Source: Chloroflexota bacterium (GTDB lineage: Bacteria > Chloroflexota > Anaerolineae > Aggregatilineales > Phototrophicaceae). From it: a stretch of DNA of 64,000 nt. The number at the start of each line of letters is the position of its first letter. Position 1 is the stretch's first letter. The notes beneath the pieces are model-generated. The model did not search any database. It was given only the letters and a program-made list of their open reading frames with translations, and was not told the DNA's origin. A program made the translations under genes and the position numbers. This document shows positions 7,055 through 34,497 of this stretch, piece after piece. Where the stretch lies: positions 186,001 to 250,000 of the forward strand of contig JAIUNI010000005.1 in assembly GCA_020161935.1 (NCBI GenBank), given 5' to 3'.

Positions 7055-7061
7055 CCATACC

Positions 7062-7110: not shown

Positions 7111-7150
7111 ATGAAAACAAACGTGATAGAGAGAAGGTGATCCCTTCTCT

Positions 7151-8101: not shown

Positions 8102-8116
8102 GGTCAGTCGTCACTT

Positions 8117-8158
8117 CGAACCACTTGGTTCGCTTCGTTAGTATCGCCCCAGTATAAT
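8117..8158 (+). promoter_or_regulatory. Candidate WYL-regulator operator and -10 box
   Basis: A perfect 7-bp inverted repeat, cgaacca-ct-tggttcg, occupies 8117-8132, between the divergent regulator and reductase genes. A TATAAT -10 box for the reductase lies at 8153-8158, so the inverted repeat covers the -35 area. A regulator bound there would block the reductase promoter. The pairing with the WYL protein is inference from position. Confidence 0.5.
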
Positions 8159-8191
8159 TTCATTAGCAAAATTTATGATGGAGAAACCCAA

Positions 8192-9109: not shown

Positions 9110-9171
9110 TCCACATTTGCTTGAGGTTGTCATCGTGAAAATCCTTAAGTGTGCATAAGAAAAAGATATTA

Positions 9172-9224
9172 GGACTGATTTTCACCTAAATTGCGTTGAC
9201 AATAGGATTATCAGTCCGTCTTAT
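9172..9224 (+). promoter_or_regulatory. Promoter of the ridA-SRPBCC pair with flanking inverted repeat
   Basis: A perfect TTGACA at 9196-9201 is followed after 17 bases by TCTTAT at 9219-9224 (4 of 6 matches to TATAAT). The 8-bp arms GGACTGAT (9172-9179) and ATCAGTCC (9210-9217) flank the -35 box and could be an operator or a hairpin. Confidence 0.5.
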
Positions 9225-9248
9225 CCACCGACTTCAAGGAGATTCATG

Positions 9249-9641
9249 ATGGCAATCAAACGGATTAACCCTGATACTCTGCATAAGAATCCGGCATTTA
9301 CGCAGGTGGCGGTCGTTGACAAAAGCGCCAAACTGGTTTTTGTGGGCGGACAGAACGCCGTGAACGCGAAAGGCGAGATTGTGGGGGATGACATTGCCAC
9401 ACAATCGGTACAAGCCTATAAAAATGTATTGACTGCTTTGGAAGCAGCCGGCGCGACGATGGCTGACGTGTTCAAGATGACCATCTATATGGTGCAGGGA
9501 AATTCCTTTGCAGATGGTTACGCCGCTATCATGCCGCTGATCGACCCGAAGCTGCCACCGCCGACCGTCAGCGGTTTGATGGTCGCAGGGTTGGCGAATC
9601 CTAAATACCTCATTGAAATTGAAGCTGTAGCGGCTATCTAG
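9249..9641 (+). CDS. RidA/YjgF-family protein lacking the catalytic arginine
   Basis: 130 residues. Two ATG codons lie in a row at 9246 and 9249; the aaggag at 9236-9241 is better spaced for the second. The Rid fold is clear (LIEIEAVAAI C-terminus, QAYKNVLTALEAAGATMADV). Classical RidA hydrolyses 2-aminoacrylate and other enamines and needs an Arg in an ARSCVEVARL-like strand. Here that strand reads TVSGLMVAGL, with no Arg, so the standard imine deaminase activity is doubtful. This matches the non-catalytic Rid subfamilies of unknown role. It is followed 16 bases later by an SRPBCC gene. Confidence 0.9.
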   Translation: MAIKRINPDTLHKNPAFTQVAVVDKSAKLVFVGGQNAVNAKGEIVGDDIATQSVQAYKNVLTALEAAGATMADVFKMTIYMVQGNSFADGYAAIMPLIDPKLPPPTVSGLMVAGLANPKYLIEIEAVAAI

Positions 9642-9657
9642 GTGAGGCGGTGTCAAT

Positions 9658-10077
9658 ATGGCTGAGAGTAAACCTGTCGGTAAAACAAAAACGCAGGGCT
9701 GGGAAATTGGTGTCCGCCGAACGCTGCCGGTTGGGTCGGGGAAATTGTGGGAGTTGTTGACGACGCAGCCGGGTTTAGGGTATTGGCTGGGACATGGCGT
9801 AGAGGTCGATTTCAAAAAGGGCGATACCTATAAGACCAAGGAGAACACTACCGGCGACATTCGTAGTTTTGAAGCGGGCAGCCTCATACGGATGACGTGG
9901 CAGCCGGACAACTGGGATTTCCAATCGACCCTGCAAATTCGCCTGACACCGGCTAAGAAGGGAACGACTTTGAGCTTCCACCACGAAAAGCTGCAAGACG
10001 GCGCACAACGGGAGCAGATGAAGGACCATTGGACGAAGGTTGTGGACAAATTGTCAGCGCTGATCGACGATCATTAG
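9658..10077 (+). CDS. SRPBCC (AHSA1-like) domain protein
   Basis: 139 residues, all one START/Bet v1-like fold of the AHSA1 type. It shows a WELLTTQPGLGYWLG segment near the start, IRMTWQPDNWD in the middle and a long C-terminal helix (REQMKDHWTKVVDKLSALI). Such proteins bind hydrophobic ligands in a deep cavity. Ligand and role are unknown. It is co-directional with the ridA-like gene 16 bases upstream, probably in one operon closed by the terminator at 10122. Confidence 0.85.
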   Translation: MAESKPVGKTKTQGWEIGVRRTLPVGSGKLWELLTTQPGLGYWLGHGVEVDFKKGDTYKTKENTTGDIRSFEAGSLIRMTWQPDNWDFQSTLQIRLTPAKKGTTLSFHHEKLQDGAQREQMKDHWTKVVDKLSALIDDH

Positions 10078-10121
10078 CGACATAACATTCGTAAAAGCTA
10101 ACAGTTTTGATACAACGGCAG

Positions 10122-10155
10122 CGCGGGGGCAGCATTTGAGTGCCCCCGTGTTATT
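10122..10155 (+). terminator. Rho-independent terminator
   Basis: Stem cgggggca (10124-10131) and tgcccccg (10141-10148) with a 9-base loop, followed by tgttattata. It ends the ridA-SRPBCC operon. Confidence 0.8.
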
Positions 10156-10200
10156 ATAGTCTTATATTCTATTAATCTTTCCCGATATTAGGTTAGTGAG

Positions 10201-11175
10201 ATGCCGGACTCGCTGACGATTATTCAACAAGAAATCGCAAGAGGGCATGTGGTACGCGCCCGTAAGATTCTGCGTGTACTGCTCGAAGAAACTCCCACTT
10301 CGGCACTGTGGTATTTGGCCTCGACCGTTTGCGAAACCCCTGAGCAAGAAATGGGTTGTTTGAAAGAGGCGCTGCGCCTCGACCGCAATTATATGGCCGC
10401 CCGCCGCCGTTACGTCGAACTCAAGCAGATGCAGCAGGTGAACCGTGAATCCGAGATGCCGCCGCTGATGGTGCTGGTGGATGACCTGCCGATGCCGGAG
10501 CCGGAACGCCCCGAAGAACCCGATCCCTTTACAGTTAACCACACCCACTATCGCCGTTCACAGCGGCGTTGGGCAGCGGTGAGCGTGGCGGGAACAGTCG
10601 TCATGAGTTTGTCGTCGGCCTATTTCGTGCTGACGCTGCTTGGCTCACCGATTCCCGCACAAATACGCTCCCTTCTCAGCGGCGAACGTCCAGTCGAACA
10701 AACGGGGCAGCCGATTTTCGGTTCACGGACGGGCAGCGGGCAGCTTAACACACCGAACGCACCGTTACCCCCTGTTTCGGCGACGAATGAGAATTATTCG
10801 GCGGCTGCGGCGGCCAGCGGATTTGTGGTGCAACCCAACAAGAGCGCGGCGCTGGAAGCGGAGAAACCGGTCAATGATGTGCTTGACCCCGGCTTTGCCC
10901 ATGAATATGTGTTAGCGGCCAAAGCGGGCGAAGAGCTGGCTGTCGCGGTACAGTTTTTCTCGCCGACTGCGAAAGATGTCGGTTCTAACATGGCGATGCT
11001 TGACCCCGACGGCTTGAACGCTTCGGCACAGTGCGAACGCGGCTCGATCCTGACGGATGGTTCGAGCGTCACGTATATCTGTAAGATCAACAAGACCGGC
11101 AATTGGCGATTGCAGTTGTTCGGGCATTCCGGCGAAAGCACCGGCGTTTACATCGTGACGTACCAGCGCATGTAA
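10201..11175 (+). CDS. Kinase-less paralogue: TPR-like, TM, extracytoplasmic domain
   Basis: 324 residues. Residues 1-80 form helical TPR-like repeats (VRARKILRVLLEET, ALRLDRNYMAARRRY), one TM helix lies at about 124-145, and an extracytoplasmic domain follows. The region from the TPR-like part to the end matches the C-terminal half of the kinase encoded next door: the TM exit reads GSPIPAQI here and GSPIATQI there, and Cys278/Cys294 are 16 residues apart, as are Cys512/Cys528 in the kinase. It may be a partner or a decoy sensor of the kinase, but the function is unknown. The gap to the kinase gene is 115 bases. Confidence 0.75.
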   Translation: MPDSLTIIQQEIARGHVVRARKILRVLLEETPTSALWYLASTVCETPEQEMGCLKEALRLDRNYMAARRRYVELKQMQQVNRESEMPPLMVLVDDLPMPEPERPEEPDPFTVNHTHYRRSQRRWAAVSVAGTVVMSLSSAYFVLTLLGSPIPAQIRSLLSGERPVEQTGQPIFGSRTGSGQLNTPNAPLPPVSATNENYSAAAAASGFVVQPNKSAALEAEKPVNDVLDPGFAHEYVLAAKAGEELAVAVQFFSPTAKDVGSNMAMLDPDGLNASAQCERGSILTDGSSVTYICKINKTGNWRLQLFGHSGESTGVYIVTYQRM

Positions 11176-11290
11176 CGTTTTGCGCGGTTCATTTGTAAAG
11201 ATTTCCTCGCTTTTACTCAATGAATCGGCAGCGCTCATCTCGTTTATACTAAACGTAGAGTGCTTAATGTGGCATAAGGTATAGTGTGAG

Positions 11291-12970
11291 ATGGCGGAAG
11301 CGACTCCCCCTGTAAACCGTTTTGGCCCGTATATCGTCCACGGGAAAATTGGCAGCGGCGGTATGGCTGTTGTCTACAAAGCCTTCAACGAAGAAACTCA
11401 GAAAACGGTCGCCCTCAAAATCTTACGCGCCGCCATGATGGAACAGGCGGATGTGGTCGAGCGCTTTAAGCAAGAGGCTAAGATCGCCGAGCGGCTGCGG
11501 CACTCGCATATCGTGGCGGTGAACAATTACGGCGCGGTCAAAGGGCGGTACTTCCTCGAACTGCAATATATGTCCGGCGGCACGCTTGGCGAACGCCTCG
11601 CCAAGCCGGTGGAAATTGGCGCGCAGGAAGTGGTGCGGATGCTGCGTGATATTGCCAGCGGCCTCGATTACGCGCACCGGCAGGGTGTTATCCATCGTGA
11701 TCTTAAACTCGAAAATATCCTGTTAGATGATAAGCGTTCGGCGTTTATCGCTGACTTTAGCATCGCCCGTTTGAACGACAGCAGTAAGCTGACAGCGACC
11801 GGATTCGTCGTGGGTACGCCGCTGACGATTGCGCCGGAGCAGGCACGCGGGGACGCAGGACTGGATCATCGGGCGGATTTGTATTCGCTGGCGGTCATCG
11901 CCTACGTGCTGGCGGTCGGACGATACCCGTTTAATGGCAGTAACCCACTGGCGATTTTGCACCAGCATTTATCGGAACCGGTGCCACCCCCAAGCCTCAT
12001 TAACACTAACCTGCCGAAAGGGTTAGACGCGGTACTGATTAAAGGGTTAGCCAAGCAACCGGGGGAACGCTACCCGAACGCGGATATGTTCGTCGAGGCG
12101 TTTGCGCGGGTGGTTGGCGAAAGTTCGATGAGCAGCACGATTATTGATTTGCAGTCCGACGTTTCCGGTAAGCGGATTGATCTGCCCGCGCCGAAGAAAA
12201 CCGAGTCGGCGGACGATTGGATGCAAAAAGCGATGGCGACCACTGACCATGAAGAGGCGATTCGCCATCTCAAGCGTGTGTTGGAAATCGAACCGCTGCA
12301 CTCGAAGGCAAACCGGTTGTTGTTTCAATTGGAAGGGGCGGTACCCAAGAACACACCGGTACGACCCAAACCCGCTGCCGTAACCGCCAGTGATCTTTCA
12401 GACCTCAAAAAAGCGACCGCATATAAGCGTAAAAGCAGCACATGGACTTACGCGGTTGTGATCGGGGTGGTGCTGGTGGGTATTTCGCTTCTGTTCTTTT
12501 ATCTGATGCTCTCCGGCTCACCGATTGCTACCCAGATTGCCAATATCATTCAGGGACGGCACGCGGTTACGGAGATTGATGGGGTGCCGATTGCGGACGT
12601 GCCGAATGCCGTGATGCAAGTCCTGCCACAGGAACGGACGACCCTTGAAGATGGGCAGAAGGCGAACTCTAGGCTTGAAAATGGCTTTTCATCCGCCTAC
12701 GCTTTTGACGCGGTTAAAGGACAGGTCTTTGGTATTGGTGTATGGTTCCAAGATGAAACCGCGAAGCACGTCACTAAGAACGTCGCCATCGTGGATGCTT
12801 CTGGCAAAAACGCCAGTTCACGGTGCGAACGCAGCACGAGTTCGGGTGCTGATAGCGCGGTGAGCTTTAGCTGCACCATTGACGAAACCGGACAGTGGTC
12901 AGTGCGTATCCTCGGCATCACCGGCGAGAGTACCGGCTCGTACTGGGTGCTGGTTGACCGTGTTGCCTAA
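11291..12970 (+). CDS. Membrane Ser/Thr protein kinase (PknB-like)
   Basis: 559 residues. An N-terminal Hanks-type kinase domain (about 12-275) has the glycine loop GKIGSGGMAVVYK, Lys43 (VALKIL), the catalytic loop HRDLKLEN with Asp137, and APE at 181-183. The DFG motif reads DFS (155-157); the metal-binding Asp is kept. A TPR-like linker (about 310-350), one TM helix (about 386-408) and an extracytoplasmic domain with Cys512 and Cys528 follow. It has no PASTA repeats, so the signal sensed is unlike that of classic PknB. It ends with a 4-base tail-to-tail overlap with the epoxide hydrolase gene. Confidence 0.93.
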   Translation: MAEATPPVNRFGPYIVHGKIGSGGMAVVYKAFNEETQKTVALKILRAAMMEQADVVERFKQEAKIAERLRHSHIVAVNNYGAVKGRYFLELQYMSGGTLGERLAKPVEIGAQEVVRMLRDIASGLDYAHRQGVIHRDLKLENILLDDKRSAFIADFSIARLNDSSKLTATGFVVGTPLTIAPEQARGDAGLDHRADLYSLAVIAYVLAVGRYPFNGSNPLAILHQHLSEPVPPPSLINTNLPKGLDAVLIKGLAKQPGERYPNADMFVEAFARVVGESSMSSTIIDLQSDVSGKRIDLPAPKKTESADDWMQKAMATTDHEEAIRHLKRVLEIEPLHSKANRLLFQLEGAVPKNTPVRPKPAAVTASDLSDLKKATAYKRKSSTWTYAVVIGVVLVGISLLFFYLMLSGSPIATQIANIIQGRHAVTEIDGVPIADVPNAVMQVLPQERTTLEDGQKANSRLENGFSSAYAFDAVKGQVFGIGVWFQDETAKHVTKNVAIVDASGKNASSRCERSTSSGADSAVSFSCTIDETGQWSVRILGITGESTGSYWVLVDRVA

Positions 12971-21318: not shown

Positions 21319-21681
21319 ATGGCAGTATTAAATGAATGGGCCTTCATCGGTGTGTTCTTCTCCATCGCATGGTTATTCCCATTCTTACCAATTCTCGGTG
21401 CGCGTTTGCTTGCACCCCACAAGCCAAACAGCATCAAGCAAGCGACCTACGAATGCGGTGTTGAAACCGTGGGCGACACGTGGGTGCAGTTCAAGGTTCA
21501 GTACTACATCTACGGGTTGATCTTCATGGTTTTCGATGTGGAAATCGTGTTCTTGTTCCCGTGGGCGCTGGCGTATAAACAGTTGGATTTCTTCGGCTTT
21601 TTCGCCGGGCTGCTGTTCGTCTTCTTCCTGTTCGACGCGCTGGTTTACGCTTGGCGCAAAGATGCGCTTGAGTGGGTCTAA
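21319..21681 (+). CDS. nuoA: NADH-quinone oxidoreductase subunit A
   Basis: 120 residues, normal length. Three TM helices and the conserved YECGVE loop with FKVQYYIYGLIFMVFDVEIV make this certain. NuoA sits at the joint between the membrane arm and the quinone chamber of complex I. It is the first gene of an eight-gene run in which nuoB, C, D and I, usually next, are absent; nuoH follows after 39 bases. Confidence 0.97.
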   Translation: MAVLNEWAFIGVFFSIAWLFPFLPILGARLLAPHKPNSIKQATYECGVETVGDTWVQFKVQYYIYGLIFMVFDVEIVFLFPWALAYKQLDFFGFFAGLLFVFFLFDALVYAWRKDALEWV

Positions 21682-21720
21682 GTCCGCTGCTGGCTGATGT
21701 GCCGAGTAAGGTAAAGATTT

Positions 21721-22956
21721 ATGGAAAACGTATGCAGTATCAATAACTTAGTGGCCTGCCTTGTGCAAAGTGGCATGAATCCCGATCTGGCGAATCTGCT
21801 GACGGCGCTCGGTGGTGTGGTGCTGGTAGCGACCGTCCCCCTCGTTACCGTGATTTTCCTGATTTGGATCGAGCGTAAGGTTGCCGCCCGTGTTCAAGAC
21901 CGCCTCGGCCCGAACCGTGTCGGCCCCTTCGGCTTGCTGCAATCGGTAGCTGATGCCGTCAAGATGATTACTAAGGAAGACATCACGCCGCAGGGCGCGG
22001 ATAAGTTCATCTATAACCTCGCCCCAATTATCGCGTTCGCGTCGGTTGTTCTTATTTGGGCGGTCATACCCTTTACGCCGCTGCATATTGGTGCTGACCT
22101 GAGCATCGGTATTCTGTACTTCGTGGCGGTCGCCTCCATCGGTACCATTAAGATTATGATCGCGGGTTGGTCGAGCAATAACAAATACGCGCTTCTGGGT
22201 GCGTTCCGCACGATTGCTCAATTACTCAGCTACGAAGTGCCGCTGGTTCTTTCGCTGCTCGTTCCGGTGATGATTGGTGGAACGCTCGGTATGCAAGAGA
22301 TCGTTCGCCAGCAGGGTGGCATGTGGTTCTTCTTCATGGCTCCGGTTGCGGCGATCATGTTTTTCATCGCCAACCTCGCCGAAACAGGCCGCGCCCCCTT
22401 TGACCTCCTCGAAGCGGAATCCGAAATTATCGCCGGTTACAACATTGAATATTCCGGTTTCAAGTGGGGCATGTTCATGGCGGGCGAATTCATGCACGCC
22501 TTCACCGCCTGCTTGCTGACCGTCGTGGTGTTCTTCGGGGGTTGGTGGGGGCCGGGTGTCGAGCAAATTCCGGTTCTGGGCTTCATCTACTTGGGGCTTA
22601 AGACGGCAGTCATTTATCTGTTCGCGCTGGTTCTCCGCAGCACCGTGCCGCGCGTCCGCATCGACCAACTGATGACGCTCAACTGGAAGTGGCTTGTGCC
22701 GATTTCGGTGGCGAACGTGATTGTGACCGCCTTCCTGCTGCAAGTGATAAAGGCGCTCGGCCTGACCCCGCAAAGTGGTGATTTGATCGCCGCACTGCCG
22801 CAAACCATCATTCTGTTGGTGGGTAATGTGCTGCTGGGTGTGGTGGTGTTCGGGTTCATCGGTCGGGTGGGACGCGCCCAACGTGCCGCTGACCAAGCCG
22901 TACAAATTCATACCGATCATGACGATCATTCACCGGTTCCTGCGGTGGGTGACTAA
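21721..22956 (+). CDS. nuoH: NADH-quinone oxidoreductase subunit H
   Basis: 411 residues, eight or more TM helices. The quinone-site loops are intact: IERKVAARVQDRLGPNRVGP near 50 and ETGRAPFDLLEAESEIIAGY near 220. NuoH links the quinone pocket to the proton channels. The C-terminus is about 60-70 residues longer than in E. coli and ends in a soluble His/Asp-rich tail (HTDHDDHSP). Confidence 0.97.
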   Translation: MENVCSINNLVACLVQSGMNPDLANLLTALGGVVLVATVPLVTVIFLIWIERKVAARVQDRLGPNRVGPFGLLQSVADAVKMITKEDITPQGADKFIYNLAPIIAFASVVLIWAVIPFTPLHIGADLSIGILYFVAVASIGTIKIMIAGWSSNNKYALLGAFRTIAQLLSYEVPLVLSLLVPVMIGGTLGMQEIVRQQGGMWFFFMAPVAAIMFFIANLAETGRAPFDLLEAESEIIAGYNIEYSGFKWGMFMAGEFMHAFTACLLTVVVFFGGWWGPGVEQIPVLGFIYLGLKTAVIYLFALVLRSTVPRVRIDQLMTLNWKWLVPISVANVIVTAFLLQVIKALGLTPQSGDLIAALPQTIILLVGNVLLGVVVFGFIGRVGRAQRAADQAVQIHTDHDDHSPVPAVGD

Positions 22957-23024
22957 CGAGTTTACAAGCAAGCCGTTTTGGTTGTGCAGCCGCCGCGCTG
23001 CACCATGACGAGTAGGACGAGATT

Positions 23025-23552
23025 ATGCTGGAATTTAATGCCCAAAGTGTTGCTTTCATCGTGTTCGCACTGTTCAGTTTGGGCGGTGCGCTCGGTGTGG
23101 TGACGACCCGCAACCTGATTCACGCAACGCTTTACCTCATTTTGAGCCTATTTGGTGCAGCCGGATTTTTCGTGCTGCTCAGTGCGCCCTTCTTGGCGGC
23201 GGTGCAAATCTTGGTTTATATCGGCGCGATTGCGATTTTAATCGTCTTCGCCGTGATGTTGACCCGCAGTATGACCCGCTTGCGCGAACTGTATAACCGC
23301 CAATGGCTGCTCAGTGGTGTCGTGGGTGTGGCGCTGTTCCTCCTGCTGATGATTGGTGTCATCCTGCCGGTGTGGGGCATCAACGGTTCGCATGTTGGCA
23401 AGCCGGTTTCGGATGTGGTGACGACCACGGTTGACCTCGGTATCGCGCTGGTTGACCAGAATCAATATGTGCTGCCGTTCGAGGTGGCCTCGCTGCTGCT
23501 GACGGCGGCGATGATCGGCGCGATTGTAATTGCACGGGATGACCGGGAATAG
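23025..23552 (+). CDS. nuoJ: NADH-quinone oxidoreductase subunit J
   Basis: 175 residues, five TM helices. It shows VQILVYIGAIAILIVFAVML (the TM3 region with the pi-bulge part) and the C-terminal FEVASLLLTAAMIGAIVIAR, both NuoJ hallmarks. nuoI, often just before nuoJ, is missing. Confidence 0.95.
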   Translation: MLEFNAQSVAFIVFALFSLGGALGVVTTRNLIHATLYLILSLFGAAGFFVLLSAPFLAAVQILVYIGAIAILIVFAVMLTRSMTRLRELYNRQWLLSGVVGVALFLLLMIGVILPVWGINGSHVGKPVSDVVTTTVDLGIALVDQNQYVLPFEVASLLLTAAMIGAIVIARDDRE

Positions 23553-23597
23553 TCGGGGTTTGCCGCTGGCATTCCCTACACTAACGGAGTGATGACG

Positions 23598-23906
23598 ATG
23601 ATACCTTTGTGGATGTATCTGGCAGTAGCAGCAGGCTTGTTCTGCATCGGCACCTACGGGGTGCTGTCGCGCCGGAATGCTGTTGCCGTGTTGATGAGCG
23701 TCGAGCTGATGCTGAACGCCGTCAACATTAACTTGGTTGCCTTCTGGCGCTATATCGAGCCTTCAAATATGGCAGGGCAGGCGTTTGCCGCCTTCGTATT
23801 TGTCATCGCTGCGGCAGAAGCATCGGTCGGTTTGGCGATTATTATTTCGGTCTACCGTAACCGCCGTTCGGTCAGTGTCGAAGATGTGGATATGCTCAAG
23901 TGGTAG
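23598..23906 (+). CDS. nuoK: NADH-quinone oxidoreductase subunit K
   Basis: 102 residues, three TM helices. Starts are possible at 23589 (GTG), 23592 and 23598; the last has the best spacing from aacggag. The two proton-path glutamates are present in [13 protein letters not shown] and [11 protein letters not shown]. Encoded between nuoJ and nuoL, with 86 bases to nuoL. Confidence 0.95.
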
Positions 23907-23992
23907 CGTAGAACCTATCCGAAGTATCAAGGGCGAGCCACCGGGCCGCCCGCATGTTGTGTGGGTACGGATAGAGAGCGAAGGTCGAATTT

Positions 23993-26491
23993 ATGGAAGC
24001 AAATGTTAGTTTTATAGGCAATCCAGATTTGCTGCCGTGGCTTGTGCCACTTGGGCCGCTGCTGGCGTTCTTCATTATTACCCTGATAACCAATCGGGCG
24101 AAGATCGTTCCGGCGACCAGCCCTGAGTACAGTGACCACAATCACCCCGGCTACTTCGGGTTGAATGTGGGTGTCGCCAGCCAAGCCAGCCGCGCCGCGA
24201 CGATCATCGTCGGTCTCAGCGGTATCATCGCCGCGTGGTTGATCGCCTTGTCGATTGTCGGGCCGGCGCTGAATACGCAACACTTCGGTGAGGAAGTATT
24301 TGGCAGCAGCTTCGATTGGCTCGCGACCGGTGAAACCGCCTTAAAGATGGGTGTGTTGGTTGACCCGCTGAACACCCTGATGCTGATTATGGTGCCGCTG
24401 GCGTGCGTGTGTATTTTTATCTACTCCATTGGCTACATGGCGAGCGATGCCCGCCAATCACGCTTCTTCGCGCTGATCTCGCTGTTCGCGGGTGCGATGC
24501 TAACGTTGGTGGTGGCGGATAACCTGCTGCTGCTGTTCGTCGGCTGGGAAGTCATGGGTTTATGCTCATACCTGCTGATCGGCTTCTGGTTCGAGAAGGA
24601 AAGTGCCTACAAAGCGGCGATCAAGGCGTTCACCACCACCCGCGTGGCGGATGTCATCATGCTGCTCGGTATCGTTTACCTGTACTCGATCACCGGCACA
24701 CTCAGCTTCCGCGAGATCATGCACAACCAAGAAGTGCTGGACTTGCTGGCGAACACACCCGCCCTCGTTTTCGGCGGCATGAGCGCGGCCAGCTTGATCG
24801 GTATCTTCCTTGTTATCGGTACCATCGGTAAATCGGCGCAGTTTCCGCTGCACGTCTGGCTGCCGGACGCGATGGAAGGCCCGACCCCCGTTAGCGCGAT
24901 GATCCACGCCGCCGCGATGGTTTCCGCCGGTATTTACGCCATCATCCGCATGTATCCGGTGTTCGCCGCTGGTGGCGACCCGCATCATGGGGTGCTGACA
25001 CCGCCGCTGCTGTTGATGACGGTCGTCGGCGCGTTTACCGCGTTGTTCGCCGCGACGATTGCGGTTGCCCAGAACGACGTGAAGAAGGTTCTGGCTTACT
25101 CGACGATTTCGCAGCTCGGCTTCATGATGGCTGCGCTCGGCATTGGCGCGTATATCGCCGCCGCCTTCCACCTGATTACCCACGCCTTCTTCAAGGCGCT
25201 GTTGTTCATGGCTTCCGGTGCCGTCATTCACGGTATGGAACATGGTGACCACCACGTCCACGAACACGCCCACGCGCATGATGACGACGACTTCGACCTG
25301 CTGCCGGCTGGCGCACACGCGCTGCCCGCTGCGGCTGGTTCGCACGGCGACCTCGCGCTCACGGCGGAAGTTGACGCGCATGTGATCGCGGGTGAACACG
25401 CCGGTCACGATACCCACGCACACACCGACTCGCATGGTCACGACGCACACGGACATGATGCACACGATGAACATGGTCACGCTGAACACTTCGACCCGCA
25501 GGACATGATGAACATGGGCGGTCTCCGCAAGGGGATGCCGGTGACCTTCATCACCTTCCTCATCGGCGGTTTGTCGCTGGCGGGCTTCCCGCTGCTGACG
25601 GCTGGCTTCTGGTCGAAGGACGAAATCTTGGCCGAAGCGTGGCTCGGCTTGACCGAAGGCTTCGGCCCACACGCGCTGGTGTTCGTCATGCTGGCAATCG
25701 CTGCCTTCCTGACCGCTTTTTACACTATGCGTCAGCTCGGCTTGACCTTCTGGGGCGAACCCCGCACCGAGCAAGCCAAGCACGCCAACTTGGGGCAGGG
25801 TATCGTCAGCGCGACGATGACACTGCCGCTGATTATCTTGGCCTTCTTCGCGATCTTTGCCGGTTTCGTCGGTGTACACCCCGGCTTCCCGCTGTTCGGT
25901 GCGATCTTCTCGCCCGAACACAACCCGTTCGCGCACTTCGTTGGCCCGACGCTGCTGCAAGAACCGCCGCACCCTGATTTCAACATCGTGCCGGTGCTGT
26001 TCTCGTTCGCGGTCGCGCTCGGTGGTTTGGCGGTCGGTTACGCGATGTACTGGCGCAAGCCGCTGCTGGCTGGCGAACCTGATCCGCTGGTCGAGAGGCT
26101 CGGCGGTCTGTATCCGGTGTTGAAGAACAAGTATTATGTGGATGAACTCTATGTCCGCGTGTTCGTGAAGCCCTCCCAGTGGTTCTCGCGCGTGGTCGTC
26201 AGCGACTTTGTGGATCGCGGCATCATCGACGGTTTCCTGCACCTGCTGGCGCGGACGTTCGTCTGGATTGGCGACTTCCTCAAGCTGTTGAATATGTGGC
26301 TCATTGACGGTGTGGGTGACGGTATCCCCGAACTGATCGCCATGTTCGGTGCGCGCTTCCGCCGTATTCAAACCGGTCGCATTCAACAATACATGCTGTT
26401 CGTCGCCATCGCTGTGATCTTAATCGCGCTGGTGTTTATTGTCGGTTCAGGCATTTTGTCACAGTCGACGGTTGCGGCGGCTGTACCTTAA
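23993..26491 (+). CDS. nuoL: NADH-quinone oxidoreductase subunit L, enlarged
   Basis: 832 residues, against about 613 in E. coli. The Mrp antiporter core is intact (WLPDAMEGPTPVSAMIHAA, HAFFKALLFMASG, SKDEIL). Two enlargements stand out. A His/Asp/Ala-rich loop (about 413-502) is inserted between HGMEHG and the usual MGGLRKGMP, with runs such as HGHDAHGHDAHDEHGH. The C-terminal lateral helix region (about 712-790, YVDELY to QTGRIQQY) is longer than normal: between IDGFLH and RRIQTG there are about 45 residues where I would expect about 20, with a second ID-G motif (WLIDGVGDG). The longer helix fits a complex with an extra NuoM. NuoL is the distal proton pump. Confidence 0.96.
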   Translation: MEANVSFIGNPDLLPWLVPLGPLLAFFIITLITNRAKIVPATSPEYSDHNHPGYFGLNVGVASQASRAATIIVGLSGIIAAWLIALSIVGPALNTQHFGEEVFGSSFDWLATGETALKMGVLVDPLNTLMLIMVPLACVCIFIYSIGYMASDARQSRFFALISLFAGAMLTLVVADNLLLLFVGWEVMGLCSYLLIGFWFEKESAYKAAIKAFTTTRVADVIMLLGIVYLYSITGTLSFREIMHNQEVLDLLANTPALVFGGMSAASLIGIFLVIGTIGKSAQFPLHVWLPDAMEGPTPVSAMIHAAAMVSAGIYAIIRMYPVFAAGGDPHHGVLTPPLLLMTVVGAFTALFAATIAVAQNDVKKVLAYSTISQLGFMMAALGIGAYIAAAFHLITHAFFKALLFMASGAVIHGMEHGDHHVHEHAHAHDDDDFDLLPAGAHALPAAAGSHGDLALTAEVDAHVIAGEHAGHDTHAHTDSHGHDAHGHDAHDEHGHAEHFDPQDMMNMGGLRKGMPVTFITFLIGGLSLAGFPLLTAGFWSKDEILAEAWLGLTEGFGPHALVFVMLAIAAFLTAFYTMRQLGLTFWGEPRTEQAKHANLGQGIVSATMTLPLIILAFFAIFAGFVGVHPGFPLFGAIFSPEHNPFAHFVGPTLLQEPPHPDFNIVPVLFSFAVALGGLAVGYAMYWRKPLLAGEPDPLVERLGGLYPVLKNKYYVDELYVRVFVKPSQWFSRVVVSDFVDRGIIDGFLHLLARTFVWIGDFLKLLNMWLIDGVGDGIPELIAMFGARFRRIQTGRIQQYMLFVAIAVILIALVFIVGSGILSQSTVAAAVP

Positions 26492-26571
26492 ACGGCAACT
26501 ACGTGTTACGGATTTCGATGTGGCGGCGGTAGTGTTATCGCCGCTGCGGAAACAACCTTGAGGTTGAAATT

Positions 26572-28239
26572 ATGGCAGTTTTTGGGATCGATGTTCTGAC
26601 GTTTTTACTGCTGGCTACGGGTGTAGCTGGTGCGATTGTGTTGTTGCTCCCCAACAACAAGCAGATCGTTCGCTGGACGGCGCTGGGGTTGTCTATCCTC
26701 ATCGGCGCGTTCTGCGTGGCGATCTTCGCCAACTACAACCGCGAGGCGGGTGCCGATCAGTTCCAGATGGTTGTGAACGTGCCGTGGTTCTCGCTGGTCG
26801 GCGCGTCGTGGCACTTGGGGATTGATGGTGTGAGCGCGGCGATGATCCTGCTGACGGGTTTGCTGACCCCGCTTGCTGTCCTCATCAGCTTCGAAATTGA
26901 AGAACGGGTCAACGTCCATATGGCGCTGCTGCTGTTCTTCGAAATGGGTTTGCTCGGTGTATTCGTCGCGATGGACTTGATGATTTTCTTCTTGTTCTAC
27001 GAACTGAGCATCGTCCCGATCTACTTCATTATCAACCAATGGGGTGGCCCGAACCGCAAGTACGCCTCGACCAAGTTCTTCATCTACAGCATCGGCGGCT
27101 CGCTCGGTATGCTGCTGGCGATGCAGATGATCGGTTGGTCGATGTCACAGGTTCCAGCGAATGTCATTCAAGCAGCACAGCAGGCGAATCCTGCCATTGC
27201 TGGATACGTCGCTGGCAGCCCTTCGTTCGACATTCCAACCATTTCGGCAGTTTGGCCGAACTTCCTCGGCGATGGTGCCGCTGGTTTCTTGGGTATTCCC
27301 ATCCAAACCGTGAAGGCGCTGGCCTTCCTCGGCTTCTTCGTGGCCTTCTGCATCAAAGTACCGGTATGGCCGTTCCACACATGGCTGCCGGACGCGCACA
27401 GTGAAGCCCCGACCGCCGGTTCGATGCTGCTGGCGGGTGTCATGCTTAAGCTCGGCGCGTACGGTTTCCTGCGTCTCGTTATTCCCTTCTTCCCGGATGT
27501 GTGGATTGCCCCGATTGATATTCTTGGCGCGATCCAGACGAACTGGGCGGGTATCTTCGCCTTCCTCGCCATGCTTAGTATCGTGCTGGGCGCGTTCGCG
27601 GCCTTCGGTCAAACCGACATCAAGCGCTTGGTCGCTTACAGCTCGGTCAACCACATGGGTTTCGTCGCGATGGGCTTGGCAGTCGCGGCGCTGGCTTATG
27701 CCCAGAACTGGCAGAACAGCAGCACCGAACACATGCAAAGCGCGATCATCGCCACCAACGGCGCGGTCATGCAGATGTTCAATCACGGGTTGACCTCGGC
27801 GGCCATGTTCTTGCTCGCCGGTGCGATCTACCACAAGACCCATACTCGCGATATGACGCAGTACGGCGGCTTTTGGGTCAAGGCTCCGGTGTACGGCGCG
27901 ATCTTCATCTTCACCAGCATGGCAAGCCTCGGTTTGCCGGGTCTGAACGGTTTCGTCAGCGAATTCTTAGTCGTGCGCGGTGCGTGGTCAGTCTTTACAT
28001 GGCTGACAATTATCTCGATGATCGGTTTGCTGTTCACGGGCGGTTACATCCTCAAGGGTATTCGCGCCGTGCTGCATGGGCCGTTCAACATGCACTGGAA
28101 AGACTACAATCTGGAAATCGAACTGCGCGAAGCAATTGCGATTGCGCCTCTCTTGGTGCTGATCTTAGTAACCGGGCTGCTGCCCAACTGGATTTTGCCG
28201 ATTATCAATGGCTCGGTGATGAAGATTCTCGGCGGCTAG
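26572..28239 (+). CDS. nuoM: NADH-quinone oxidoreductase subunit M, first copy
   Basis: 555 residues, about 14 TM helices. The antiporter signature is complete: FFLFYELSIVPIYFII with the key Glu, WLPDAHSEAPTAGSMLLAG with the Lys in VMLKLGAYG, and SVNHMGFV. It is predicted to be a proton-pumping antiporter-like subunit. A second, clearly different NuoM follows 30 bases later. Confidence 0.95.
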   Translation: MAVFGIDVLTFLLLATGVAGAIVLLLPNNKQIVRWTALGLSILIGAFCVAIFANYNREAGADQFQMVVNVPWFSLVGASWHLGIDGVSAAMILLTGLLTPLAVLISFEIEERVNVHMALLLFFEMGLLGVFVAMDLMIFFLFYELSIVPIYFIINQWGGPNRKYASTKFFIYSIGGSLGMLLAMQMIGWSMSQVPANVIQAAQQANPAIAGYVAGSPSFDIPTISAVWPNFLGDGAAGFLGIPIQTVKALAFLGFFVAFCIKVPVWPFHTWLPDAHSEAPTAGSMLLAGVMLKLGAYGFLRLVIPFFPDVWIAPIDILGAIQTNWAGIFAFLAMLSIVLGAFAAFGQTDIKRLVAYSSVNHMGFVAMGLAVAALAYAQNWQNSSTEHMQSAIIATNGAVMQMFNHGLTSAAMFLLAGAIYHKTHTRDMTQYGGFWVKAPVYGAIFIFTSMASLGLPGLNGFVSEFLVVRGAWSVFTWLTIISMIGLLFTGGYILKGIRAVLHGPFNMHWKDYNLEIELREAIAIAPLLVLILVTGLLPNWILPIINGSVMKILGG

Positions 28240-28269
28240 CCGTCGGAGCTTCATAATAAGGACGTAATT

Positions 28270-29988
28270 ATGGGTGGATTTCAGTTTCCGATTTTAAGTG
28301 TGATCATCTTTACGCCAATCGTCGCGGCGCTCATTATGCTGGCGATGGATGCGGCGAAGCGCGACATGATTCGCGGTGTGGCGATCACAGCGGCGGGTAT
28401 CGTTCTGGTACTGTCCGCAGCCGTTTACTTTGGCTACAACAGCCAGATCACGACACTCACCGCTGACCTCGACCAGATCGCGGCAGCAGGAGGGCCGTTC
28501 AAAGCGACGGCCATGTTTGTGCGCGGCCTCGCCTTTGAAGAAAATATCCCGTGGGTATCCACACTCGGTATCGCCTACCACCTCGGTGTGGACGGCCTGA
28601 ACGCGCCGATGGTGCTGCTCACCGGTATGGTGACGGTTGCCGGTGTGTTGATCTCGTGGCGCATTGAAGACCGCACACGCGAATTTATGGCCTTCTTCAT
28701 GCTGCTGGTCGCAGGTGTTTACGGTGTATTCCTCGCGGTCGATACCTTTGTCCTCTTCTTCTTTTATGAACTCGCGATCTTCCCCATGTACCTGCTGATC
28801 GCAACGTGGGGCTGGGTCAAGCTGCGTGAATATGCAGCGATGAAGCTGACGCTTTATATCCTCATCGGTTCGGTGGTTGCGTTGGTTGGTGTGATCGCGA
28901 TGGTCTTCACCGCCAGCAACTTCTTCGCGGGTGACGGCGCACAGGCGTTTGAAGCAGCTAAAGCGGCGGGTGTGATAGCCCCCGACGCGCCGACCTTCAG
29001 CTTTAGCATTACGCATTTGATGGCAGCCGGTGAAGCGGGCGCGTTTAGCATCCCCGGTTATGCCGGTATTGACGTGATGACCTTCTCTAAGCTGTGGTTC
29101 CCCTTCATCTTTATCGGTTTCGCGGTTCTGGCAGGGGTGTTCCCCTTCCACAACTGGTCGCCGGACGGTCACGTTGCCGCCCCGACTGCGGTTTCGATGA
29201 TCCATGCAGGCGTGCTGATGAAGCTCGGTGCTTACGCCGCGCTGCGGATGGGTATGCAGTTGATGCCTGAAGGCGCACAGGTTCATATGCCGTGGATTGT
29301 GTTCCTCACGCTGGTCAATGTGGTGTACGGCGCGTTTATCGCCTTCCGCCAGCGTGACTTCAAGTATGTTATCGGCTTCTCGTCGGTCAGCCATATGGGT
29401 TTGGTGTCGATGGGTTGGGCGACCATGAATATCGTCGGTATGACCGGCGCGGGTTTGCAGATGTTCAGCCACGGCGCGATGACGGCTCTGTTCTTCGGCT
29501 GCGTCGGTATGGTTTACGACCGCGCACATACCCGTGATATTCCGAGCCTCGGCGGTTTCGCCAAGAAGATGCCGTGGGTGGCGTTCGCCTTCATCATCGG
29601 CGGTTTGACCAGTATGGGTATGCCGTTGTTTAGCGGTTTCGTATCCGAATTCGCTATCTTCCAAGGGATGTGGCAAGCCTCGCCCAATATTTCGCTGCAA
29701 ATTGGTAACTTCACCCTCACGAATTACTATTCGATCATCGTCATTCTGTCCGCATTAGCCATCGTCATCACGGCGGCCTATGTGCTGCGGGTGACAGGGC
29801 AGGTGTTCTTCGGTGAGTTTGATGCCGCCAAATACCCTGATGTGGGTGACATTGGCATCACCGACCGTATTATTTTGTTCCTGTTGGGTACGCCGCTGCT
29901 GATTATCGGTGTATTCCCGACAATCATTTATCCGATGGTCACCGCCGGTTTGCAGCCCGTGCTGGCTATCCTCGGAGGGGGTCGCTAA
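28270..29988 (+). CDS. nuoM: NADH-quinone oxidoreductase subunit M, second copy
   Basis: 572 residues. It keeps the pump residues (FFFYELAIFPMYLLIATWGW, NWSPDGHVAAPTAVSMIHAG, VLMKLGAYA and SSVSHMGLVSMG) but differs from the first NuoM over most of its length, with its own loop at about 210-250, so it is an old paralogue and not a recent duplicate. The start has aagga upstream. With NuoL and NuoN it would give four antiporter-like pumps. Confidence 0.94.
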   Translation: MGGFQFPILSVIIFTPIVAALIMLAMDAAKRDMIRGVAITAAGIVLVLSAAVYFGYNSQITTLTADLDQIAAAGGPFKATAMFVRGLAFEENIPWVSTLGIAYHLGVDGLNAPMVLLTGMVTVAGVLISWRIEDRTREFMAFFMLLVAGVYGVFLAVDTFVLFFFYELAIFPMYLLIATWGWVKLREYAAMKLTLYILIGSVVALVGVIAMVFTASNFFAGDGAQAFEAAKAAGVIAPDAPTFSFSITHLMAAGEAGAFSIPGYAGIDVMTFSKLWFPFIFIGFAVLAGVFPFHNWSPDGHVAAPTAVSMIHAGVLMKLGAYAALRMGMQLMPEGAQVHMPWIVFLTLVNVVYGAFIAFRQRDFKYVIGFSSVSHMGLVSMGWATMNIVGMTGAGLQMFSHGAMTALFFGCVGMVYDRAHTRDIPSLGGFAKKMPWVAFAFIIGGLTSMGMPLFSGFVSEFAIFQGMWQASPNISLQIGNFTLTNYYSIIVILSALAIVITAAYVLRVTGQVFFGEFDAAKYPDVGDIGITDRIILFLLGTPLLIIGVFPTIIYPMVTAGLQPVLAILGGGR

Positions 29989-29990
29989 CT

Positions 29991-31514
29991 GTGAGTACTA
30001 CCGAATTTACCCTCGGGCAAAGTTTGCTGGTCGTCCTGCCGGAGTTCGGTCTGGCGGCGCTGACCTTCATTGTCTTGCTGCTCGACCTGCGCTGGTCAGA
30101 AACCCAGCGTAAGAATATCGCCGTCGTGTCCGGTGTCGGCTTGGGTCTCTTGGCGCTCATCCCGCTCATTATTTACCCCGGCTCACCGTCCACACCGGTC
30201 GGCCTGTACTGGGGCGGCATGATCCGCTACGACGCACTCTCCCAAATATTCAAGGTGATGGTGCTGGCGGCGGGTGCAATCACCAGCTTGATTTCGGCGG
30301 ATGTCAAAGGCATTGGCCGTAAAGGTGAGTTTTATATCATCCTGATCGTGTCGTCTCTCGGCATGACCTTGATGTCCAGCGCGGCTGACCTCATCATGGC
30401 CTTCCTCGCGCTCGAAACCACCTCCATTCCTCTGTATATCCTCGCGGGCTTTAAGCGCGGGGATAGCCGGAGCATGGAAAGCGGTATGAAGTATTTCCTG
30501 TTCGGTTCGTTCGCCTCGGCCATCATGCTCTACGGCTTGAGCTTGCTTTATGGCTTCAGCGGTCAAACCAACCTGTATCAATTGGCTCAATATCTGAACT
30601 CAGATGCGTTTGCGAGCAATCCGGTTCCGGTGCTGGCTTCGCTGGTTTTGGTGATCGTCGGCTTCGGCTTCAAGATTAGTGCCGTTCCCTTCCACTTCTG
30701 GACACCCGATGTTTACGAAGGCGCTCCCACACCCGTAACCGCCTTCTTAAGCGTCGCCAGTAAGGCGGCCAGCTTCGCGCTGCTCGTCCGGTTCCTGATC
30801 GCGGTATTCCCGGCGACCGTCGTCATCGGCGGTACGGAAATCCAGAATTTCTGGGTGCAGTTGATGGTCGCTTCTGCGGTCATCTCGATGACGGTTGGTA
30901 ACGTCGTCGCGCTGTCGCAGAAGAACATCAAGCGTCTGCTGGCTTACTCCAGCATCGCGCAGGCCGGTTATACCCTCGTCGGTGTCGCGGCCATTCAGTC
31001 GGCGACGGTCGCAGGGCAGGCGGATGCGGTCGCTTCCGTCGGCTTCTATATGTTCATGTATGTGTTCACGAACCTGCTGGCCTTCGCCGTCGTCATCCTG
31101 TTCAGCGAAGCCACGGGCAGCGAAACGATTGCCGACCTCGCGGGTCTCAGCCGTCGCAACCCCTTCCTTGCGCTGATGATGACCGTTGCGCTGCTCTCTC
31201 TGGCAGGTGTGCCACCGGCTGCCGGTTTCGTTGGCAAGTTCTTCCTGTTCCGCGCCGCCGTTCAATCCGACCTCACATGGTTGGCGATTGTCGGTGTGTT
31301 GAACTCGATTGTGGCGCTTTACTACTATCTGGTGGTCATCAAGGTCATGTACGTTGACCGCAGCCCGGATGAAGATAAGCCCATTCCGGTGTCGCGCCCC
31401 TACACATGGGCGATGAGCATCACCGCGATTGCCGTCATCCTGATCGGTACGGTGGCGGTGCAGACAGTGTTTACGTGGGCGGTCGAAAGCGCACGCTCGC
31501 TGTTCCCCAGCTAA
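29991..31514 (+). CDS. nuoN: NADH-quinone oxidoreductase subunit N
   Basis: 507 residues, GTG start 2 bases after the second nuoM, with ggaggggg upstream. Typical NuoN marks are FLALETTSIPLYILAGF with the Glu, FHFWTPDVYEGAPTPVTAF, and RLLAYSSIAQAGYTLVG. It is the antiporter-like subunit nearest NuoK. It is the last nuo gene before a hairpin. Confidence 0.96.
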   Translation: MSTTEFTLGQSLLVVLPEFGLAALTFIVLLLDLRWSETQRKNIAVVSGVGLGLLALIPLIIYPGSPSTPVGLYWGGMIRYDALSQIFKVMVLAAGAITSLISADVKGIGRKGEFYIILIVSSLGMTLMSSAADLIMAFLALETTSIPLYILAGFKRGDSRSMESGMKYFLFGSFASAIMLYGLSLLYGFSGQTNLYQLAQYLNSDAFASNPVPVLASLVLVIVGFGFKISAVPFHFWTPDVYEGAPTPVTAFLSVASKAASFALLVRFLIAVFPATVVIGGTEIQNFWVQLMVASAVISMTVGNVVALSQKNIKRLLAYSSIAQAGYTLVGVAAIQSATVAGQADAVASVGFYMFMYVFTNLLAFAVVILFSEATGSETIADLAGLSRRNPFLALMMTVALLSLAGVPPAAGFVGKFFLFRAAVQSDLTWLAIVGVLNSIVALYYYLVVIKVMYVDRSPDEDKPIPVSRPYTWAMSITAIAVILIGTVAVQTVFTWAVESARSLFPS

Positions 31515-32001: not shown

Positions 32002-33291
32002 ATGGGCAAAACGCAACGTGGCTGTCTAGTCCTGCTAGGCATCATCGTTTTCTTAGGGGCTTGTGCATGGCTCACGTTCGGTGTTCTGCCGGGCGCGGGT
32101 TCAGCGCCGTCGCTCCCTGTGATTGCCGTACCCGGTGAGCCGTACTACACATGGTTTACCTTCTTTGGCCTGTTCCCTGTAACCAACACATGGGTTCACA
32201 CGCTGACCGTCTCGCTCATCCTGCTGATCGTCGTGGCTATTGGCTGGCGCGTGAGCAAGGGCTGGACGAAGGAAGTTCCCGGTCGTTTCCAAGCGCTGCT
32301 GGAACTGCTCGGTGAATTTGTTTATGGTCAGACCAAGAACTTCGCCGGTTTAACCCCGCTGTCGCGCAATTGGCTGTTCCCACTGGCCGCCAGCATCTTC
32401 GTTTTCTTGCTCGTTGCCAATCTCAGCAAGCTGATCCCCGGTTTTGAAACCGTCGGTATCATGCACTGCGCCGGTCACAACGATGTCGAGAACGGGATCA
32501 ACATCACCGCTGGTCACCCGTCTGTCGGCAACCAACTATGGGTTGATGCACCGCTGAAGTCGGCCTACACCGCTGACGAAACCGACTACCACGCTTGCGA
32601 AGAGTGGAAAGAAGGCCATGTCACGGCTCCAACCTCGGCTGAACTGGCTGCCGCTGCGGATCACCTGCGTGAAGAAGAAGAGACCATTCGCTTGGCGAGC
32701 TTTACCGATACTGAGGAAAGCACCGCCATCGAAGAAGCTCGTCTGCACGCCGCCGAAGAAGTCTGGCCGCACGCCGCCGTAGGCTTACCTGCCGACGCGC
32801 TGGAACAGGGTGTTGTACCCTACCTTCAGGTTGTCACCCCGTACTTCCGTGGTGCCACCACCGACTTGAACCTGCCGTTGGCTTTGGCGCTCATCGTGTT
32901 CGTCGCAATTCAGGTATTTGGTGTCGCCGCTCAAGGCCCCAACTACTTCCAGAAGTTTGTGAACCTGAGCGCGCTGGGCAACCTCGGCAAGAAACCGCTG
33001 GGCGCAATCGACTTCGTGGTCGGTCTGCTCGAAATCATCTCGGAACTCGGTAAGATCGTCAGCTTGACCTTCCGTTTGTTCGGTAACCTGTTCGCAGGTG
33101 GTATTCTGCTCGCGGTTATGTCCTTCTTGGTCGGCCTCATTCTGCCCGTGGTCTTCATGGGTCTGGAATTGGTCGTTGCCAGCATTCAGGCATACGTATT
33201 CGCAATCTTGACAATCGTGTTCTCGGCGCAGGCGATGGAAGGCCATCATGGCGACGATGAACATCACGACGAAGCTCACGATCACGCTTAA
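32002..33291 (+). CDS. atpB: ATP synthase F0 subunit a, with large loop insertion
   Basis: 429 residues, against about 270 in E. coli. The proton-path Arg358 lies in LTFRLFGNLFAGG. About 130 residues (about 150-280) are inserted between LSKLIPGFET and the usual TTDLNLPLALALIVF. By E. coli topology this is the extracytoplasmic loop between the second and third long helices. The insert is acidic, has Cys156 and Cys199, and a helical Glu-rich part. The C-terminus ends in a His/Asp-rich tail (HHGDDEHHDEAHDHA). The subunit forms the proton half-channels against the c-ring. Confidence 0.94.
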   Translation: MGKTQRGCLVLLGIIVFLGACAWLTFGVLPGAGSAPSLPVIAVPGEPYYTWFTFFGLFPVTNTWVHTLTVSLILLIVVAIGWRVSKGWTKEVPGRFQALLELLGEFVYGQTKNFAGLTPLSRNWLFPLAASIFVFLLVANLSKLIPGFETVGIMHCAGHNDVENGINITAGHPSVGNQLWVDAPLKSAYTADETDYHACEEWKEGHVTAPTSAELAAAADHLREEEETIRLASFTDTEESTAIEEARLHAAEEVWPHAAVGLPADALEQGVVPYLQVVTPYFRGATTDLNLPLALALIVFVAIQVFGVAAQGPNYFQKFVNLSALGNLGKKPLGAIDFVVGLLEIISELGKIVSLTFRLFGNLFAGGILLAVMSFLVGLILPVVFMGLELVVASIQAYVFAILTIVFSAQAMEGHHGDDEHHDEAHDHA

Positions 33292-33303: not shown

Positions 33304-33567
<264 letters not shown>

Positions 33568-33594: not shown

Positions 33595-34497
33595 ATGAGC
33601 AAAAATAAGTCTCTTAAACGAATTCTTATGGCAGCGCTGCTGATGGCTTCCATGCTGTTCAGCGTCTCCATTATGCGCGCCCAAGAAGCGACCGCCGAAC
33701 CGACGGCTGCCGAGGCCGCTGCTGAAGGCGACCACAGCACCGAGGCTGCGGCAGAGGGTGAAACGGCTGCTGAAGCTGCTCCTGCCACCAGCCCGTTGAC
33801 CCCGCTGGGTATCAACGCTGGCTTCTTGATCGCCCAAATTGTCAACTTCCTCATTATCTTCGCCGCGCTGTTGTTTGGTCTGTGGCGGCCTATTGCCAAC
33901 ATGCTCGACAGCCGTGGTGCCAAGATCCAGAAGGGTTTGGAAGACGCACAGGTCGCCGCGAACGCTCGTCGTAACGCCGAAGCCGAAGCGGAAACCATCC
34001 GCTCCAACGCCCGTGCGGACATCTCGAAGGGTGTCGAAGAAGGTCGTCTGCGTGGTGATGAAGTCGCCAAGCAGATCGAAGCCGAAGCCCGTACTGAAGC
34101 CGAAAAGATCCGCGCCGAAGCCCGTACTGCTGCTGCTGCCGAACGTGATCAGCAGTTGGCCGGTCTGCGTGGTCAAATCGCCGCGATTTCGCTGGCTGCG
34201 ACCCACAAGCTGATTGGTTCCGCGCTGGACGACAAGAAGGCTAAGTCACTGATCGACAACTTCTTCACCGATGTGCCGCAAGGCGCTCTCAAACTCGGTG
34301 GCGCGGTTGAAGTCGTCAGCGCCATGCCCTTGAGTGCCGATGAACAGGCCAAGGCCAAGAGCGCCATTGGTGCGGATAGCATCACCTTCACGGTTGATCC
34401 GTCTATTCTCGGTGGCTTGATCGTTCGCTCTGGCGACCGTGTTGTGGACGGCAGCGTCCGCAGCGGCCTGAATGACCTGAGCGCCCGCTTGAACTAA
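33595..34497 (+). CDS. atpF: ATP synthase b subunit fused to the C-terminal part of delta
   Basis: 300 residues. Residues 1-29 look like a cleavable signal peptide (RILMAALLMASMLFSVS, then MRA-Q), followed by an Ala/Glu/Thr-rich stretch to about 70. Then comes the b-type TM helix (INAGFLIAQIVNFLIIFAAL), a long charged coiled coil (105-230) and, from 238, the C-terminal part of delta/OSCP (VVSAMPLSADEQ, DPSILGGLIVRSGDRVVDGS). The N-terminal helical domain of delta, which binds F1 alpha, is missing. It forms the peripheral stalk. No F1 genes follow; the next gene is murE-like. Confidence 0.9.
   Translation: MSKNKSLKRILMAALLMASMLFSVSIMRAQEATAEPTAAEAAAEGDHSTEAAAEGETAAEAAPATSPLTPLGINAGFLIAQIVNFLIIFAALLFGLWRPIANMLDSRGAKIQKGLEDAQVAANARRNAEAEAETIRSNARADISKGVEEGRLRGDEVAKQIEAEARTEAEKIRAEARTAAAAERDQQLAGLRGQIAAISLAATHKLIGSALDDKKAKSLIDNFFTDVPQGALKLGGAVEVVSAMPLSADEQAKAKSAIGADSITFTVDPSILGGLIVRSGDRVVDGSVRSGLNDLSARLN

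Follow-up and report, generated by a model that had tools for sequence, protein, structure and literature searches.

The window analysed here (64,000 nucleotides; contig C28 of the Chloroflexota genome G000) carries the genes for the membrane arm of a complex I in the order nuoA-H-J-K-L-M1-M2-N (21319-31514), with ATP synthase F0 genes next to them. This locus is a member of the already described Chloroflexi 2M complex I, which has a second NuoM subunit. The second NuoM, which we will refer to as M2, lacks the lysine normally found on transmembrane helix 7 (TM7), and the lateral helix of NuoL, which is lengthened here, comes in stepwise lengths in complexes with a single nuoM; these two features are the interesting parts of the result. 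The explanation that we favour overall, and consider reasonably probable, is a four-unit 2M arm in which M2 is a non-standard spacer or relay. The genome comprises 7.6 Mb on 32 contigs, with a completeness of 96.7% and a contamination of 7.6%, and its named relatives are Anaerolineae metagenome-assembled genomes.

The two nuoM genes are both intact and lie in tandem between nuoL and nuoN. Their products score 463 and 415 bits against the NCBIfam model TIGR01972, for which the NuoM family cut-off is 263.8 bits, and are 36.3% identical to each other, so that the tandem of divergent, complete NuoM genes described in the original prediction is real. The tandem is accompanied by a NuoL helix with about 26 inserted residues and by a separate nuoBCDI cluster with fused nuoCD, and the identification of the complex as 2M holds: in Chloroflexi, Anaerolinea thermophila included, the extra NuoM lies between NuoL and NuoN, nuoBCDI is found elsewhere and nuoCD is fused (PMC7117926), and Chloroflexus aggregans has the same arrangement (PMC8004040). 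A similarity set was made up of the window and 80 loci retrieved for their resemblance to M2. In this set 63 loci have complete nuoL, nuoM and nuoN, and every one of them, the window included, has two nuoM, one extra helix module and the same gene order. Ten further two-NuoM loci from an even sample of the class have the same order and one extra module. The 2M complexes, those of Chloroflexi among them, were reportedly described by Chadwick et al. (ISME J 2018). One contig labelled Bacteroidetes (L078, JAPUDW010000339) encodes an M2 that is 97% identical to that of the window over 329 residues and is probably mis-binned.

Scoring of conserved residues (E. coli NuoM numbering: E144 on TM5, K234 on TM7, K265 on TM8, H322, H348, and E407 on TM12) separates the two NuoM proteins. 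All six are kept in each of 82 M1 sequences. Of 88 Anaerolineae M2 sequences, 88 have E144, 85 have K265, 88 have H322 and 86 have H348, and E407 is present in every one of the 87 in which it was scored. None of the 88, however, has a lysine at position 234, which is leucine in 87 and threonine in one. The TM7 lysine is present in every single NuoM scored, and in a phylum-wide search the M2 proteins of other Chloroflexota families also have leucine at this position. One further sequence that keeps the lysine (L211) aligns only weakly to M2 and looks like an ordinary NuoM. The TM7 lysine and TM5 glutamate are described as an invariant and essential pair that contributes to the point at which adjacent units are coupled (PMC7419157), and with the loss of the lysine M2 is without half of the standard Glu/Lys switch.

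Four pumping subunits had been predicted for this complex, but a key lysine is lost in one NuoM, an outcome that the original prediction had itself named as refuting it. TM5 Glu, TM7 Lys, TM8 Lys and TM12 Glu are all present in M1, whereas M2 has Leu287 at the TM7 position, and four equal pumps are therefore not shown. Nor is M2 a gene in decay, an idea that we rejected on the grounds that 50 M2 proteins have a long list of invariant residues in common. Its AlphaFold model has a NuoM fold (mean predicted local distance difference test score, pLDDT, 86.2; predicted template modelling score 0.90), and the best matches in the PDB are the NuoM of Paracoccus (top) and of cyanobacteria; no 2M complex structure is among the PDB matches listed. 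In the remainder of the arm, NuoL keeps all nine of the E. coli key residues compared, NuoK, NuoJ and NuoH likewise keep every residue compared, and NuoN keeps four of five, H305 being replaced by glutamine.

M2 also has a histidine on TM8 (His312, in 'SMIHAGVLMK'), which is invariant in 50 aligned M2 and present in most, not all, of the other Chloroflexota M2, L185 being one that lacks it. Counting back from a conserved Gly-x-Tyr, this residue appears to occupy the place of His254 of NuoL, and the NuoL histidine at TM8 has been proposed to replace a lysine there (PMC7419157). It is thus possible that M2 also moves one proton per cycle, giving 5 H+ per 2 e- from four full pumps as has been hypothesised for 2M in the literature, with the TM8 histidine or another residue standing in for the TM7 lysine. 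The retention in M2 of the TM5 glutamate, the TM8 lysine, the central histidines and the TM12 glutamate, together with its strong conservation and NuoM-like fold, argues in this direction. We nevertheless think it rather unlikely, as the TM7 Lys/TM5 Glu pair is reported to be invariant and essential (PMC7419157), its loss is fixed across the phylum as sampled, and the TM8 histidine is absent in at least one M2 (L185).

The spacer or relay arrangement that we favour would work as follows. NuoL, M1, M2 and NuoN would line up beside NuoK, NuoJ, NuoA and NuoH, clamped by a NuoL helix that is one module longer, an assembly suggested by the anatomy of the subunits; by arithmetic the extra module would contribute 26 x 1.5 A = 39 A, about one subunit. 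The hydrophilic core would be supplied by nuoB, fused nuoCD and nuoI on another contig, and electrons would arrive from ferredoxin or via borrowed NuoEFG. NuoL, M1 and NuoN have retained their standard Glu/Lys proton-path residues. M2 still has Glu on TM5, Lys on TM8 and Glu on TM12, as well as the TM8 His, but the usual partner of its TM5 Glu, the TM7 Lys, is gone; it would most likely act as a spacer and electrostatic relay that passes on the coupling signal and does not pump via the standard switch. This is the least certain step, and pumping by another path is not far behind it. Several points weigh against the reading as a whole: M1 and M2 are presumed to belong to one complex, the argument from the lateral helix is weakened because single-NuoM complexes have the same helix length, and M2, with its other proton-path residues kept and a TM8 histidine gained, may pump by another path.

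The lateral helix of NuoL was measured as the number of residues from the Tyr of 'DELY' to 'QTG'. By this count it has 75 residues in the window, 44 in E. coli, 46 in Thermus (counted on the alignment) and 47-49 in canonical Anaerolineae NuoL. The elongation that had been predicted is therefore confirmed, but its size is about 27-31 residues in the alignment with E. coli, Thermus and Anaerolineae NuoL (75 versus 44-49) in place of the roughly 25 first given. The predicted second ID motif within the helix also proved real: I745-D746 is followed by I771-D772 at a spacing of exactly 26 residues, the first pair being invariant and the second at least 90% conserved among 46 NuoL sequences. Profile self-comparison of the helix gives repeat signals at lags of 30 and 26, the best of which exceeds all 200 column shuffles. 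AlphaFold, run with the 46 aligned NuoL, predicts a nearly unbroken helix (714-775 and 777-789) followed by TM16 at 796-818, with modest confidence over the helix (block mean pLDDT about 50-79). The NuoL model superimposes on E. coli NuoL (model residues 11-744 on chain residues 1-561) with a root-mean-square deviation of 3.0 A, an alignment that covers the body and the start of the helix. All structure predictions are of single chains, and helix lengths in angstroms are arithmetic at 1.5 A per residue.

Before the TM12 region NuoL has a loop of some 80 residues (about 418-500) that is rich in His and Asp and predicted with low confidence, and a similar His-rich loop is seen in the other NuoL of this genome.

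The occurrence of the long helix with two nuoM is not a matter of chance, because 63 two-NuoM loci have a helix of 74 or 75 residues. Over both sets one extra module (about 26 residues) is found in 73 of 73 scored two-NuoM loci and a normal helix in none of them. The converse does not hold. Loci with complete nuoL, nuoM and nuoN were scored in the even sample, with the second complex I of this genome counted in, and besides the ten two-NuoM loci, each with one extra module, there are 39 with a single NuoM. Of these, 16 have a normal helix, 19 have one extra module (the second complex I of this genome among them), two have two extra modules and one has three; the last has one extra module plus an unrelated insertion. 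The second complex I, which was to be a negative control for helix length, failed as a control since it has one NuoM and yet a helix of 77 residues. The earlier argument from helix length to a fourth pump thus stands in one direction, in that every 2M locus has the longer helix, and falls in the other, as many single-NuoM complexes have it too. A long helix is not diagnostic of a second NuoM; the link is one-way, from 2M to the long helix only.

Helix lengths fall into steps of 44-49 (canonical), 73-78, 99-107 and 125-128 residues, the last three corresponding to one, two and three extra modules. A wider search yielded further single-NuoM loci: some have a helix with two extra modules, such as L252-L255 (99-100 residues) and L266 (100), and L244-L247 have one of 125 residues; L248 (116) and L163 (96) contain additional unrelated insertions. 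L163 was considered as a two-module helix and rejected, as it has one extra module and an unrelated insertion of 22 residues. In the f94-family loci L245-L247 (125 residues) the final segment contains many prolines and is possibly non-helical, and the clear three-module cases are therefore L175 (genome G017, 7711-9942) and L244 (G424), both NuoL of single-NuoM complexes. When the helix of L175 is aligned to itself, the best offset is 27 residues, with 30% identity, and since the units in L175 and L244 have diverged from one another the repeats do not look like recent or assembly-made duplications.

A genome-wide antiporter census (Pfam PF00361, E up to 1e-15) of eight long-helix single-NuoM genomes that are 85-96% complete (G007, G017, G316, G321, G386, G402, G414 and G444) found no fourth antiporter gene and exactly three in each. 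Most of the compared genomes are metagenome-assembled. Two identical nuoM might have been merged into one during short-read assembly, but this is unlikely to account for every case, because the single-contig assemblies G025 and G323 (sequencing technology unspecified) have one NuoM and helices of 78 and 75 residues. A bolder proposal would be that the lateral helix of NuoL serves as a modular ruler, each module spanning one antiporter unit. Single-nuoM complexes would then hold several copies of NuoM, with up to six pump units, and in 2M one of the copies would have turned into, or given way to, the specialised paralogue M2; we regard this as doubtful.

The same helix lengths could also be taken to mean that M1 and M2 are alternative isoforms, one per complex, and that the long helix has some other cause, given that single-NuoM complexes, even in this genome, have a helix of equal length. 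This seems very improbable to us. M1 and M2 are neighbours in one cluster, the extra module accompanies both genes in all 73 two-NuoM loci, with no normal helix among them, and M2 is a deeply diverged paralogue with invariant residues of its own and no recent duplicate.

Phylogenies bear on the order in which the two features arose. In a NuoM tree rooted on NuoN, M2 forms one clade outside all other NuoM, including that of E. coli, and M1 forms one clade that is sister (0.96) to the single NuoM of long-helix complexes. In a NuoL tree from which the helix was left out, 33 of 34 two-NuoM sequences group together (0.98) within the long-helix single-NuoM sequences, with L156 elsewhere; extra modules arise more than once in this tree, and several of its deeper nodes are weakly supported. 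That helix lengthening preceded the acquisition of M2 is in our view an even proposition, which concerns origin and is compatible with the spacer or relay explanation. For it speak the nesting of the two-NuoM clade among single-NuoM sequences that already have an extra module, the sister relationship of M1 to the single NuoM of long-helix complexes with M2 far outside, and the frequency of long helices with one NuoM; against it, besides the weak deeper NuoL nodes and the separate position of L156, a 2M ancestor whose descendants lost M2 several times would leave a similar picture. Should the helix have come first, its length within this clade would be no direct guide to how many different pump genes there are.

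The soluble core of the 2M complex is encoded on contig C16 (L095), where nuoB (4851-5735), fused nuoCD (5744-7603) and a nuoI-like gene (7664-8521) are grouped with an Fe-S carrier (NUBPL). The NuoB (295 amino acids) and NuoI-like (286 amino acids) proteins are clearly longer than their E. coli counterparts. Genes for NuoE, NuoF and NuoG are absent from both clusters of the 2M complex (window and C16), and the only NuoF of the genome is encoded on contig C22, alongside NuoE and NuoG, and belongs to the other complex I. The complex thus differs from the 14-subunit NADH:quinone oxidoreductase, in which NuoE, NuoF and NuoG are encoded with the complex, and the higher proton count per NADH that had been proposed is unsupported because no NuoEFG goes with it. 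Its electron donor may be ferredoxin or borrowed NuoEFG, both being possible. The second complex I (L009, C22:50001-70000, 9649-12117; L096) has NuoEFG, a single NuoM and a NuoL helix that measures 77 residues and includes the insert 'DWRFWHDYFH'; the NuoJ-like protein of this complex has a DUF4397 domain in addition.

The ATP synthase genes are arranged somewhat like those of the 2M complex. The F0 genes lie 3' of nuoN, an adjacency that is kept in many relatives, and genes of F1 alpha/beta type are on C16, as are nuoBCDI, so that the membrane sectors of both enzymes cluster apart from the soluble sectors. Subunit a has a long hydrophilic insertion (about residues 150-275) between transmembrane parts, and the protein ranges from 331 to 571 amino acids among relatives. 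Elsewhere the window encodes an alpha-2-macroglobulin-like protein with bacterial Ig-like domains.

Table 1. Features of the 2M locus and other genes mentioned in the text, in window positions. The boundaries of both lateral-helix modules are the analysts' choice. aa, amino acids.
Feature	Position	Strand	Basis and remarks
nuoA	21319..21681	+	Pfam PF00507, E 3e-33
nuoH	21721..22956	+	Pfam PF00146, E 5e-115; keeps E. coli H residues E36, E157, D213, E216, E218, Y225, E228
nuoJ	23025..23552	+	Pfam PF00499, E 3e-37; keeps Y59
nuoK	23589..23906	+	Pfam PF00420, E 6e-29; keeps E36, E72
nuoL, 832 aa, elongated lateral helix	23993..26491	+	NCBIfam NF005141, 595 bits
NuoL His/Asp-rich loop	25244-25492		
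NuoL lateral helix, residues 720-795 (75 residues DELY to QTG)	26150..26377	+	alignment counts; AlphaFold helix
First 26-residue helix module, residues 741-766 ('DRGIIDGFLH...'), additional unit	26213..26290	+	26-residue ID spacing; repeat signal at lags 26 and 30
Second helix module, residues 767-792 ('NMWLIDGVGD...'), also in canonical NuoL	26291..26368	+	alignment, ID spacing
nuoM1, 555 aa	26572..28239	+	TIGR01972, 463 bits; E144, K262, K293, H361, H405, E464 all present
nuoM2, 572 aa	28270..29988	+	TIGR01972, 415 bits; keeps E167, K318, H375, H401, E460; without TM7 Lys
Codon of M2 Leu287 (TM7 lysine position, E. coli NuoM Lys234)	29128..29130	+	residue alignment
Codon of M2 His312 on TM8, putative place of NuoL His254; Leu in M1	29203..29205	+	M2 alignment
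nuoN	29991..31514	+	TIGR01770, 412 bits; keeps E133, K217, K247, K395; H305 = Gln
ATP synthase F0 subunit a	32002-33291		
ATP synthase F0 subunit c-like	33328-33567		
ATP synthase F0 fused b-delta	33595-34497		
Alpha-2-macroglobulin-like protein, 2088 residues	788-7054		

The interest of these observations lies in two open questions, the number of protons that complex I transports for every two electrons and the way in which pump units along the arm are coupled. M2 is in effect a natural mutant, with which it can be asked whether a unit without the TM7 lysine is still able to pass on coupling. The stepwise helix lengths with a single nuoM suggest that the length of the helix and the number of genes vary separately, and in annotation extra pumps should not be called on helix length alone.

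Compared with canonical complex I (E. coli, Thermus, Mycobacterium), the window has all the core membrane subunits and nearly all of the key residues compared in NuoL, M1 and NuoN; unlike the window, the canonical complexes have a single NuoM, and their lateral helix is shorter by about 27-31 residues. The 2M complex of Nitrospira (clade 3 of Chadwick; PMC6606698) is alike in its second NuoM, its lengthened NuoL and a cluster without NuoE or NuoF, although the N. moscoviensis cluster is reported to lack NuoH as well (PMC6606698), which the window has. In the parts of the account of 'Ca. Manganitrophaceae' that we drew on, complexes I_1, I_2 and I_3 have lateral-helix insertions of 26 residues as in the window, and such insertions also occur in complexes that resemble canonical forms by gene content (PMC9040806), which sets a precedent for long helices in complexes with no additional pump gene. 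According to the same parts of that source, I_3 has two MrpD-like subunits plus two NuoM, to which the window has nothing similar, and they make no mention of helices with two or three extra modules (PMC9040806), which are present in the Anaerolineae studied here. The closest likeness is to the Chloroflexi 2M complexes (PMC7117926, PMC8004040), which share the order nuoL-M-M-N, the fused nuoCD in a separate nuoBCDI cluster and the lengthened NuoL, C. aggregans also being alike in having a second complex I in its genome. We found no structural difference from these complexes, and what is added here is an M2 without the TM7 lysine across the Chloroflexota sampled.

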